Source: Clostridia bacterium (lineage in GTDB: Bacteria; Bacillota; Clostridia; Oscillospirales; CAG-272). Taken from it: 10,892 nt of DNA. A model generated the notes under the pieces. It did not search any database. It saw nothing but the letters and a program-made list of their open reading frames with translations, and was not told the origin of the DNA. The stretch spans positions 1 through 10,892 of the forward strand of contig JAKSPW010000029.1 of the NCBI GenBank assembly GCA_024404435.1, written 5' to 3'. Both the position numbers and the translations under genes were made by a program. Shown one piece after another: positions 1,727 through 6,526 of this stretch (position 1 is the stretch's first letter; the number at the start of each line of letters is the position of its first letter).

Positions 1727-2137
1727 AAAAAAGCAGACCGACGGCAGGAGAGGATATCCTCCTCCCACTTAATAATGGAGCGAAGCGAGAATTCATGACA
1801 TTCTGCCGAGGTAGAATGTCAATTCATGATTTTCGCGAACGCGAAAATCAATTCATGCGCGAAGCGCAATTCATTTTTCCGTACGGTTTTGGCTGTACAT
1901 TATCTCGTGAGATCCCCACGTCCTCAAGGATTTTGCCGGAGACAAAATCCTTGTCTCCTCGGGATGACAAATAAAGAGAAGATGGCAGCCGCCGCTTTGC
2001 TCCTGCCATTCCGTTACAGCAAAACAGAAACGGCAATAACTGCACGAAAAGTAAACAGGCTGTACTTAATGTGTCATTGCGAGGGCGTTTTCGCCCGTGG
2101 CAATCTCAAAAAAAGACGTGCGGATTTGATTTTTCGT
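1727..2137 (+). repeat. Composite hairpin-rich dispersed repeat, copy A
   Basis: This approximately 410-bp non-coding element recurs inverted at 6131-6526 (copy B). The order of shared blocks is: a poly-A/GACCG start; a variable hairpin ending in CCTCCC; TAATGGAGCGAAGCGAG; three ATTCA-separated hairpins; TTTTTCCGT-CGGTTT; GATCCCCAC, a variable hairpin (1926-1952) and CCTCGGGATGACAA; a TAAAGAGAAGA block; TGTCATTGCGAGGGCG...CGCCCGTGGCAATCTCA (2072-2107); and a GTGCGG/TTT end. Copies A and B share a 63-bp perfectly identical stretch (1820-1882). Blocks of the GTCATCCCGAG and TCATTGCGAGG...TGGCAATCTC kind are familiar dispersed repeats in many bacterial genomes. The element has no convincing reading frame. 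Together with the hairpins to its right it fills the gene-free stretch 1638-2389. Confidence 0.85.
1791..1873 (+). repeat. Array of three TG...CA hairpins separated by ATTCA (in copy A)
   Basis: ATTCA occurs at 1791-1795, 1822-1826, 1851-1855 and 1869-1873. Each interval between two ATTCA words is exactly one inverted repeat that begins TG and ends CA: 1796-1821 (arms TGACATTCT/AGAATGTCA), 1827-1850 (arms TGATTTTCGC/GCGAAAATCA, loop GAAC) and 1856-1868 (arms TGCGC/GCGCA, loop GAA). Confidence 0.9.
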
Positions 2138-4413: not shown

Positions 4414-5835
4414 TCAGAATCTGAAATAAATGAACGGGTTGAAGCTGCCCGAGACGAGCTTCATGTACCCGAGGGCGAATACGACGACGGCGTAGAGCTT
4501 CGGCGCCGCATGATATACGATCTGCGGGAAAGTGCCGCCATCGGAAAGGCGCTTTTTGATAAGCTTTCCGAGCGGGAAGCAGCCGATCACGCAGAGGACG
4601 AATTCGGGCAGATACTGCAGCAGATAGTAGACGGCCTCGCCGGAGAAGAGGTTTCCTCCCGCACCGAACATCACGCCGACGTACCTTGCGGCGTAGCCGA
4701 TCGTGTCGGAACGGAAGAGCACCCAGCTGATAACGACGATCAGCAGAACGAGGATATGCCTTATCACTGCGGGTATCTTCGGAAGGATCTTCCCGAGCAG
4801 ATACTTTTCCGCGATGAGAAGCACGCCGAAGTATGCTCCCCAAAGGATGAACGTCCACGCCGCGCCGTGCCACATTCCGGTGAGCGTCCAGACCACCATC
4901 AGGTTGAAGATATGGCGAGCCTTCGAGCATCTGTTGCCGCCGAGCGGTATGTAAACGTAGTCGCGGAACCACGTCGAGAGCGAGATGTGCCATCTGCGCC
5001 AGAAGTCCGTGACGCTCGAGGCGACGTAGGGATAGTTGAAGTTTTCCTCAAAGCGGAATCCGAACATTTTGCCGAGTCCGATCGCCATGTCGGAGTAGGC
5101 GGAAAAATCAAAGTAGATCTGGAAGGTGTAGGCGATGGCTCCGACCCACGCGACAGCCGTCGTCGAGGGATCCGCCGCAAAGACCTGATCCGCGATCTCG
5201 CCCATCGCGTTGGCGAGTATCATTTTCTTGGCGAAACCGATCATGAAGCGCTCCACGCCGTCCGAGAAGAGCTCGAGCGTGTGACGGCGGGCGTTCAGTT
5301 CGCGTTCGACCGTCGTGTAGCGCACGATGGGGCCCGCGACGAGCTGCGGGAAGAGCGCAACGTACAGTGCGACCTTCAGCGGGTTTTTCTGCACCGCCGC
5401 GTCGCCTCTGTAAACGTCGATGACGTAGCTCGCGCCCTGAAACGTGAAAAAGCTGATGCCCACGGGGAGCACGATGCTCGTCACTCTGACGGAGAGACCG
5501 AGATTTGCCGCGACCTCCGTCGCGAAATTAGCGTATTTGAAGTATCCGAGAAGCGCAAAGTTCGCCACCAGCGTGAGGATGAATATCACCCGTCTTGCCG
5601 CCCTTGACGCGGGGCGCGTGACGGTCAGTCCGCCGACGTAGTTTATCACGATCGACGCGCCGAGAAGCCCGAGGAAGCGCACTCCGTTGAAGCCGTAAAA
5701 CACTGCGCTGAATGCGAGAAGCACGAAGTTTTTCCACCAGAGCAGCCGTCCGTCTTTTCCCTGCGGGATAATAAAATAACAAAGGAAAAGAAGCGGCAGG
5801 AACAAAATCAGAAAATCAGTATTCGTAAACAGCAT
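4414..5835 (-). CDS. MBOAT-family membrane O-acyltransferase (AlgI/DltB-like)
   Basis: 473 residues, a normal length for AlgI-type MBOAT proteins. The ATG at 5835 is chosen because AAAGG lies 7 nt before it; an in-frame TTG 21 bases upstream has no ribosome site. The protein is highly hydrophobic with about ten membrane segments. Diagnostic motifs are LPVGISFFTFQGASYVIDVYRG, FPQLVAGPIVR, YFDFSAYSDMAIGLGKMFG, NFNYPY, DFWRRWHISLSTWFRDYVYIPLGG (His283) and the invariant histidine in TGMWHGAAWTF (His323). The family moves acetyl groups from a cytoplasmic donor across the membrane; the SGNH protein encoded next in the operon would complete the transfer. This is the first gene of the operon, with a promoter 46-74 bp upstream. 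Within the family the exact substrate (alginate-like, peptidoglycan or other glycan) is not determinable. D-alanylation is less likely because no dlt genes are adjacent. Confidence 0.93.
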   Translation of the reverse strand: MLFTNTDFLILFLPLLFLCYFIIPQGKDGRLLWWKNFVLLAFSAVFYGFNGVRFLGLLGASIVINYVGGLTVTRPASRAARRVIFILTLVANFALLGYFKYANFATEVAANLGLSVRVTSIVLPVGISFFTFQGASYVIDVYRGDAAVQKNPLKVALYVALFPQLVAGPIVRYTTVERELNARRHTLELFSDGVERFMIGFAKKMILANAMGEIADQVFAADPSTTAVAWVGAIAYTFQIYFDFSAYSDMAIGLGKMFGFRFEENFNYPYVASSVTDFWRRWHISLSTWFRDYVYIPLGGNRCSKARHIFNLMVVWTLTGMWHGAAWTFILWGAYFGVLLIAEKYLLGKILPKIPAVIRHILVLLIVVISWVLFRSDTIGYAARYVGVMFGAGGNLFSGEAVYYLLQYLPEFVLCVIGCFPLGKLIKKRLSDGGTFPQIVYHAAPKLYAVVVFALGYMKLVSGSFNPFIYFRF

Positions 5836-5880
5836 CTTTTTGCCTTTCGATATCAATGCAAATATCTCTCATTATACGGT

Positions 5881-5909
5881 ATTATACCATATTTCCGCGG
5901 TTATTGCAA
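5881..5909 (-). promoter_or_regulatory. Sigma-A-type promoter of the MBOAT-SGNH-SPFH operon
   Basis: On the minus strand, TTGCAA (5904-5909) and a perfect TATAAT (5881-5886) are spaced by 17 bp. A second TATAAT (5871-5876) lies 10 bp further down. The predicted start site near 5874 gives a leader of about 40 nt. Confidence 0.8.
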
Positions 5910-5949
5910 GAGAGGCGGGAGGGCCTCGGAACGGACGTGCAATTTCAGC

Positions 5950-6103
5950 AAGCCTTCCCCAGCGGGGAAGGTGTCGGCGCAGCCGACGGATGAGGAGAGC
6001 ACGGCGCAGACTTTGCATCAAATTAACCGCTTCAGACGGTATTCTCCTCATCCCCCGGCGGCTTGCCGCCTATGTCATCCTTCCCCGCTGGGGAAGGCGC
6101 CTT
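5950..6103. repeat. MITE-like element: inverted pair of approximately 50-60-bp hairpin repeats
   Basis: The left arm (5950-5998) and right arm (6042-6103) are inverted copies. Each contains CCTTCCCC-AGC-GGGGAAGG, then a second small hairpin, then GGATGAGGAGA. The second hairpin differs between the arms: GTCGGC-GCA-GCCGAC on the left, GGCGGC-AA-GCCGCC (minus-strand reading) on the right. About 43 bp of unrelated spacer (5999-6041) separates them. No transposase is present. The CCTTCCCCAGCGGGGAAGG word is a familiar intergenic repeat in gut Firmicutes, which is background knowledge rather than a search result. Confidence 0.8.
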
Positions 6104-6130: not shown

Positions 6131-6526
6131 AGAAAGCCGAAACCGCACGATATTCCATGAGATTGCCACGGGCGTTTCACGCCCTCGCAATGACAAATTA
6201 AGTGCAGCGCGACATTAAGCAAAGCTTTCGCCATTTCGTCAAAGCGAAAACGTAATGGCAGGAGCTGTGCGACTGCTTCCGTCTTCTCTTTAATTGTCAT
6301 CCCGAGGCGACAATGCTTTTGCCTGCGGCAAAAGCATTGGAGATGTGGGGATCTCCGTGGTGTCGTAAAGTTGAAACCGCACGGAAAAATGAATTGCGCT
6401 TCGCGCATGAATTGATTTTCGCGTTCGCGAAAATCATGAATTGCTGCCTGAGGCAGCATGAATTCTCGCTTCGCTCCATTATAAGGCGGGAGGACGCACG
6501 TTGTGCGGACCTCGGTCGGCTTTTTC
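6131..6526 (-). repeat. Composite hairpin-rich dispersed repeat, copy B (inverted relative to copy A)
   Basis: Read on the minus strand, this element has the same block order as copy A (1727-2137). The blocks TAATGGAGCGAAGCGAG, CCTCGGGATGACAA, TAAAGAGAAGA and TCATTGCGAGGGCG...CGCCCGTGGCAATCTCA are shared. A 63-bp stretch (6381-6443) is identical to 1820-1882. The sequences between these blocks have diverged, and two hairpins were replaced by different hairpins (6442-6458 and 6312-6338). With the MITE-like element and the operon promoter it fills the gene-free stretch 5836-6640. Confidence 0.85.
6390..6463 (-). repeat. Array of three TG...CA hairpins separated by ATTCA (in copy B)
   Basis: On the plus strand the linker reads TGAAT, at 6390-6394, 6408-6412, 6437-6441 and 6459-6463. 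The intervals are hairpins that begin TG and end CA: 6395-6407 (same as in copy A), 6413-6436 (same as in copy A) and 6442-6458 (arms TGCTGCCT/AGGCAGCA). The last replaces the unrelated 26-nt hairpin of copy A. Confidence 0.9.

Follow-up and report, generated by a model that had tools for sequence, protein, structure and literature searches.

A candidate dispersed family of linker-joined hairpin arrays associated with PF05635 (IVP) genes in gut Clostridia

Paired hairpin arrays in a Clostridia contig

The window, the 10,892-nt stretch of DNA analyzed here, comes from a Clostridia MAG of 1.50 Mb (referred to as G000; 248 contigs, 80% complete). It carries two hairpin arrays, copies A and B, on opposite strands, the latter behind groEL (Table 1). 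Each array consists of three hairpins that begin with TG, end with CA and are joined by the word ATTCA, and the TG and CA of each hairpin pair with each other as its two basal base pairs. A preliminary description of this DNA had set out this cassette layout, and both copies agree with it in hairpin length, in having TG and CA flush with the hairpin ends and in their exact ATTCA linkers. The 24- and 13-nt hairpins are identical between A and B. The first hairpins had been called unrelated; this was mistaken, as they share an apical CTGCC/GG(C/T)AG stem to which copy A adds a basal ACATT/AATGT stem. In both copies the leader GGAGCGAAGCGAGA adjoins the first linker on its outer side, and the 16 own-genome loci checked contain GGAGCGNAGCGAGA-ATTCA at 12 separate places, one of them with a T variant. 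The longer repeats that contain the two arrays (about 1760 to 2133 and 6133 to 6494) form an inverted pair, with arms I1 to I5 that are 76 to 94% complementary. Folded as RNA together with its leader (1775 to 1878), copy A has a z-score of -4.1. On the minus strand its linker reads TGAAT, an orientation comparable with the UGAAA of the Gut-1 RNA (RF01706). No frame for an IVP (PF05635, 23S_rRNA_IVP) protein was recognized by eye in the list of open reading frames of the window, so far as copies A and B are concerned.

Table 1. Positions of the arrays, hairpins, leaders and enclosing repeats in the window.
Feature	Position	Strand	Details
Copy A, three-hairpin array	1791..1873	+	ATTCA linkers 1791-1795, 1822-1826, 1851-1855, 1869-1873
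Hairpin 1 of A, 26 nt	1796..1821	+	apical CTGCC/GGTAG + basal ACATT/AATGT
Hairpin 2 of A, 24 nt	1827..1850	+	
Hairpin 3 of A, 13 nt	1856..1868	+	
Leader unit ATGGAGCGAAGCGAGA, outside first linker of copy A	1775..1790	+	
Copy B, three-hairpin array (17-, 24- and 13-nt hairpins)	6390..6463	-	~180 nt downstream of groEL
Hairpin 1 of B, 17 nt	6442..6458	-	CTGCC/GGCAG
Leader unit of copy B	6464..6479	-	
Longer composite repeat containing copy A	1760..2133	+	inverted relative to 6133-6494
Longer composite repeat containing copy B	6133..6494	-	inverted relative to the copy A repeat

CRISPR arrays consist of long direct repeats (tens of nucleotides) with unrelated spacers. The arrays described here do not have this form: their constant part is 5 nt and their inserts are self-complementary.

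Other palindromic repeats adjoin both arrays, at 1900 to 2133 and 6133 to 6360 of the window (GAGATCCCCACG...CTCGGGATGACA and TGTCATTGCGAG...GGCAATCTCA), and palindromes akin to them also lie beside the array at G000:C74 of the same MAG. A separate perfect 20-bp inverted repeat, GCCTTCCCCAGCGGGGAAGG, occupies 5952 to 5971 and 6079 to 6098, with 107 nt between its arms.

Dispersal and mobility of the arrays

The pattern ATTCATGN{4,34}CAATTCAT, corresponding to ATTCA-TG..CA-ATTCA, matched 42 times in G000 compared to 0 matches for a reversed-pattern control, and 15 of the 39 genomes searched (G000 included) held matches, with a maximum of 82 in one genome. Such counts speak against a chance origin of the layout. 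By a fixed rule, 30 of the 34 distinct inserts in G000 are palindromic, as are 99 of 106 in G014 and G041. At least 120 stretches of viral contigs also matched the pattern; these are mostly chance, since only 7 of 80 inserts were palindromic among the matches listed. Carriage by phage was considered and rejected on these matches and on a scan of viral contigs for IVP, which gave a single relative, itself with TGAAA/TTTCA arrays.

In G014, a member of the same family, the eight elements examined are symmetric and about 240 nt long, with small deviations. The first half reads ATGAATTG, four hairpins, CATTAAGG, one hairpin and an AT-rich center, which is followed by one hairpin, CCTTAATG, four hairpins and CAATTCAT. 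Hairpin sequences vary among the copies while the linkers are nearly constant, and the RNA fold of one G014 element has a z-score of -10.4. The arrays of G000 are mostly one-sided. Its copies fall into positional hairpin families with graded variants, and the first-hairpin forms of A and B are both graded in other own-genome copies; one of these (C199) has a 17-nt first hairpin with a loop unlike that of copy B. Gradual change of the stems had been named as evidence against insertion of whole cassettes, and such variants exist at given positions (hp2 TGATTTT...AAAATCA, hp1 CTGCC...GGCAG), which weakens that model. At another locus of G000 (L003, on C43, about 1510 to 1640), a second hairpin array with the linker ATATCGC directly follows an ATTCA array.

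Copies with different surroundings were found in relatives. G110 has four (two in L458 and one each in L459 and L460) that are 86 to 96% identical in the pairs compared, and three of them, mutually 86 to 94% identical, lie directly behind tRNA-Ala, tRNA-Arg and tRNA-Tyr. Another four, in G117, are 90 to 98% identical with different flanks. Four elements of G014 or G041 have no counterpart in the corresponding intergenic spacer of one or more sister species. The relatives therefore show what is generally expected of a mobile element, similar copies with different flanks together with presence and absence at orthologous sites: copies come and go there, and stand behind different genes and tRNAs. 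Target-site duplications could not be read for the four elements examined because their flanks have diverged too far. At one orthologous site (L126, about 5732 to 5969, and L185), the elements of G041 and G039 have different hairpins, the result of either turnover or independent insertion. Insertion behind intrinsic terminators was rejected for the ATTCA family, as 5 of 62 G014/G041 element ends lie in such a position compared to 6.4% of non-coding background positions.

The place of copy B, 3' of groEL, is occupied by a gttatga-type IVP element in G001 and G002 and by a tgatat-type element in G008, so that three linker families stand at the same site within one genus (G000, G001, G002, G008). 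The gttatga arrays were read by eye and had been missed by the automatic finder. No array was found downstream of groEL in G003, G004, G005, G007 and G009; in G006 and G011 the contig stops too early to show the site.

Association with IVP genes and the Gut-1 RNA

On contig C90 of the window's own MAG, an IVP gene lies between two ATTCA arrays, and in the alignment of G014/G041 orthologs one otherwise standard element has an open frame between its central hairpins. Both proteins, those of C90 and of locus L141, score 88 bits against PF05635 (cutoff 33.8) and 98 to 102 bits against TIGR02436 (cutoff 24). Gene-bearing copies encode a four-helix-bundle protein of ~118 amino acids (PF05635, Avd-like fold). 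A search of G000 for PF05635 gave matches on C22 and C90 only, and two genus members, G010 (74% complete) and G011 (86% complete), have ATTCA arrays yet no IVP match. The predicted IVP fold (mean pLDDT, 91.6) matches 2rld and 2gsc first and then the Avd structure 4dwl and the DGR RNP structures 8ub7/8ube, with TM scores of 0.73 to 0.79, weak Foldseek E-values (0.025 to 0.2) and 9 to 14% identity. The resemblance of PF05635 to Avd is noted in the available text of PMC10053308.

To describe the surroundings of IVP genes, we drew a main sample with one genome per species, keeping 80 of at least 543 loci that encode relatives of the L141 protein. An array was called where at least 2 palindromic inserts stood between identical 5-mers within 700 nt of the IVP gene. 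Arrays were found near the gene in 65 of 80 loci compared to 3 of 80 in segments 1.1 to 2 kb away (by segment, 78/155 near and 3/140 far), and in none of 400 dinucleotide-shuffled flank pairs. In a second sample (29 loci from a family-wide PF05635 draw plus L143), 17 of 30 loci had arrays near the gene and 0 of 30 far from it. The finder called no array in 15/80 and 13/30 loci of the two samples, respectively. In the second sample, no array accompanies any of the nine IVPs with the top PF05635 scores of the family draw (L143, L295-L302), and two kinds of IVP gene may therefore exist.

A tRNA gene lies within 600 nt upstream in 28 of the 80 main-sample loci, the nearest always on the same strand, compared to 1 of 80 downstream; 24 of these 28 are at 230 to 275 nt, and 11 isotypes are represented. 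None of the 30 loci of the second sample has an upstream tRNA, so the adjacency is a property of one clade.

The linker words of the 80 main-sample loci are TGAAA (34), TGAAT, which is ATTCA on the other strand (22), TGATA (6) and TGAAG (3), with none in 15, and the second sample adds TGATG and TTTAG. Placed on the IVP protein tree, the labels require 18 changes compared to 39.6 when shuffled (0/200 shuffles as low), in a test that treats "none" as a fifth group, uses few columns, receives contributions from near-copies and includes one wrong label (L262, called TGATA by a tie, has TTTCA in its upstream array). The linker is thus a conserved word that follows the protein tree and not the duplicated target that the preliminary description had suggested. 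Position, linker word and copy number all tie the arrays to IVP. Most copies are gene-less: IVP is encoded in 6 of 58 loci with the ATTCA pattern (two elements) and in 0 of the 10 best Gut-1 loci, examined with flanks that reached at most 1.5 kb and in some cases were truncated at the end of a contig. At L210, the IVP gene stands between two directly oriented, similar arrays; they share their second halves, and some first-half hairpins differ.

Arrays beside IVP genes also match a described RNA family. At the Rfam gathering threshold, Gut-1 was found in 14 of the 41 IVP locus ids scanned, with scores of 51 to 79 bits (cutoff, 50) for the matching arrays. Most TGAAA arrays and a few others reach this cutoff, with Gut-1 in 9 of the 11 TGAAA-array loci scanned (exceptions, L223 and L264). 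Neither the window nor the other ATTCA loci given had a Gut-1 match at an E-value of ≤0.1, and one ATTCA element (L059) scored 29.4 bits, below the 50-bit cutoff. Since they fall below the Gut-1 score, the window arrays are Gut-1 relatives by architecture, with which they share tandem hairpins joined by an invariant short single-stranded linker. Gut-1 hairpins are likewise free in sequence and have the fixed linker UGAAA, where the ATTCA family has UGAAU on the other strand; in contrast, the Rfam model comprises three hairpins with UGAAA linkers and no gene.

We surveyed Gut-1 and IVP in 118 genomes drawn from the family, with statistics that ignore shared ancestry. Gut-1 was present at an E-value of ≤0.001 in 79 genomes and over the cutoff in 67, with up to at least 36 matches per genome, and PF05635 was present in 72. 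Both occurred in 61 genomes, Gut-1 only in 18, IVP only in 11 and neither in 28 (odds ratio, 8.6; p = 6.5e-7; ancestry-uncorrected), and their copy numbers correlated (Spearman, 0.69; ancestry-uncorrected). Among 150 Gut-1 and 150 IVP matches listed, 10 Gut-1 matches lie 128 to 185 nt upstream of an IVP gene on the same strand and 2 other same-strand pairs lie within 1.5 kb; no opposite-strand pair within 1 kb was found among them.

The same survey bears on enzymes that could move the arrays. All 30 genomes with at least 10 Gut-1 copies encode IVP, whereas 16 have Y1_Tnp (PF01797), 6 have RVT_1 (PF00078) and 12 have neither of the last two. G000 (80% complete) has neither, so the Y1 transposase or reverse transcriptase that the preliminary description had proposed to look for is not required. 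Repeats of the REP/BIME type are likewise dispersed short palindromes and, in the sources available, are thought to be served by a transposase, the REP-associated Y1 transposase (RAYT). The intergenic, dispersed palindromes and a weak co-occurrence of Y1_Tnp with Gut-1 over the 118 genomes (odds ratio, 2.6; p = 0.039; ancestry-uncorrected) would suit such a system; however, the elements here combine free stems with fixed linkers and need no Y1 transposase, PF01797 being unmatched in G000 (80% complete) and absent from 14 of the 30 copy-rich genomes. RAYT is largely refuted as a general driver, and this is the least probable of the explanations that we weighed. A DGR-like or other retroelement, in which a reverse transcriptase would copy the RNA of the array with IVP as its Avd, is highly improbable as well. 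Avd is the best-ranked fold match after structures of the S23 family, and one clade of elements lies directly behind tRNA genes; against this, RVT_1 occurs in only 6 of 30 copy-rich genomes, is not associated with Gut-1 over the 118 genomes (odds ratio, 1.05; ancestry-uncorrected) and has no match in G000 (80% complete).

Stem conservation, hairpin change and interpretation

In 20 aligned Gut-1-type arrays the linkers are invariant or nearly so, and 96.8% of stem cells pair, falling to 33 to 40% when the alignment is slid by one column. In a structure that left out hp4 and most of hp3, which align poorly, 18 of 35 pairs changed on both sides compared to a shuffled mean of 8.2 (0/500 as high). 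Stems are thus kept by base pairing and not by sequence. The 5' arm of the first hairpin covaries also with a third, distal segment. This triple covariation (alignment A1, columns 6 to 13, 18 to 25 and 92 to 100) maintains two pairings that exclude each other, which suggests a structural switch.

Strong conservation of stems in place could equally well reflect a host function. The arrays would then be RNAs with a cis-regulatory or processing role in the host, dispersed by ordinary recombination. IVP would be either a passenger under regulation or an RNA-binding protein of the host, and neither selfishness nor intrinsic mobility would be involved. Such an origin would explain why orthologous stems and linkers change far less than loops and flanks, why, in the 20 Gut-1-type arrays, the 5' arm of the first hairpin has two alternative covarying partners in the manner of a structural switch, and why some elements, read by eye, follow a stop codon and precede the next ribosome-binding site. 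We nevertheless regard it as unlikely, given copies that are 86 to 98% identical with different flanks within a genome (behind three tRNAs in G110), presence and absence at orthologous sites, high copy number and three linker families at one groEL 3' site within a genus.

Ten orthologous G014/G041 loci were aligned to follow change in the hairpins. Two pairs (L113/L140 and L116/L132) show block exchange of several hairpins, and in three pairs whole units have been lost or gained exactly, in lengths of 16, 33 and 34 nt (1, 2 and 2 units with linker, respectively). In the eight pairs outside the block exchanges (47 units; stems labeled geometrically), changes were found at 1 of 305 linker sites, 7 of 549 stem sites, all one-sided, and 10 of 145 loop sites, compared to 730 of 7,970 in the flanks of all ten pairs. 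Hairpins are near-static in place, and the diversity among paralogs must therefore come from older divergence and copy-to-copy exchange. Turnover in place by quasi-palindrome correction, which predicts two-sided stem changes, was rejected, as none was seen in the 47 orthologous units.

These alignments also bear on the original proposal that tiny palindromes were inserted repeatedly with a 5-bp ATTCA duplication, or that hairpins were replaced by template switching. The exact unit gains and losses between orthologs, the identical linker around every unit and the 26- versus 17-nt first hairpins of A and B are what such a process would leave. However, recombination between identical linkers equally explains unit loss; no hairpin was swapped and no stem changed on both sides in the 47 units; architecture is similar across copies, and each lineage mostly keeps the number and layout of its units; the linker word changes with the IVP clade; and A and B have a common apical stem in their first hairpins. 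We consider this origin very unlikely.

The reading that we judge probable treats A and B as gene-less representatives of a group of short, dispersed, mobile and structure-conserved "IVP hairpin-array elements," whose arrays IVP recognizes and whose gene-less copies it serves in trans. An element would comprise one or two hairpin strings with a fixed 5-nt single-stranded linker, and gene-bearing members would also encode the PF05635 four-helix-bundle protein, putatively related in structure to Avd, the accessory protein of DGRs. The array would be transcribed, an IVP multimer would bind the array in its folded form, whether RNA or single-stranded DNA, via the linkers, gene-less copies such as A and B would use IVP in trans, and strand transfer would be performed by a host enzyme or by IVP itself. 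Hairpin differences between paralogs would arise by slow compensatory change together with loss, gain and block exchange of units, and not by insertion of single hairpins. Of the modular, mobile and trans-driven system first envisaged, modularity stands, mobility is seen in relatives and dependence on a protein in trans is probable.

A bolder and tentative possibility is that IVP hairpin-array elements are a new class of bacterial mobile element, with no known transposase, recombinase or reverse transcriptase and with an Avd-like four-helix oligomer that reads a 5-nt word as their sole product. Gut-1, the ATTCA arrays and the TGATA, TGAAG, TGATG and CTAAA linker families would then be one superfamily, and IVP would be the mobilizing factor or an adaptor that recruits a host enzyme. 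The Avd of DGRs has a similar predicted four-helix-bundle fold, with the low identity and weak Foldseek E-values given above, and the elements here have no obligatory reverse transcriptase. Among known systems, the 23S rRNA intervening sequences (IVS) of Leptospira and Coxiella are also small, have complementary borders and carry an IVP/S23 gene, and the available part of PMC4990558 calls the Coxiella IVS selfish and its S23 proteins without known function. Unlike the arrays, IVS are situated inside rRNA genes, and linker-joined arrays go unmentioned in that part; no rRNA family matched the window or the 41 IVP locus ids at the Rfam gathering threshold. IVP is also reported in rRNA insertions of CPR bacteria in the accessible text of PMC11270868.

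Open-licence PMC literature, mostly at the level of titles and abstracts, held nothing that links PF05635 or Gut-1 to hairpin arrays. In PMC2864571 (2010), as far as its accessible text goes, Gut-1 is listed as a noncoding RNA of the "Human gut only." Judging from sequence comparison, the arrays appear to be a dispersed family widespread in gut Clostridia, and their link to PF05635 and Gut-1 appears to join two long-standing orphans. Reports that name 23S_rRNA_IVP with the genes of cas or CRISPR loci (accessible parts of PMC3936711 and PMC10910872) may also be explained by the arrays, because constant words with variable inserts can resemble CRISPR.

If the probable reading is true, the two orphans explain each other: PF05635, which has had a crystal structure since 2006 (2gsc) and no assigned function, and Gut-1, an RNA candidate since 2010 that is likewise without one. 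The fixed linker is predicted to be a recognition code for IVP proteins, as between the TGAAT and TGAAA clades. If IVP alone or with host enzymes moves the elements, they would represent a mode of mobility that belongs to none of the known transposase or retroelement classes, and such IVP-driven mobility would offer a possible origin for Avd.
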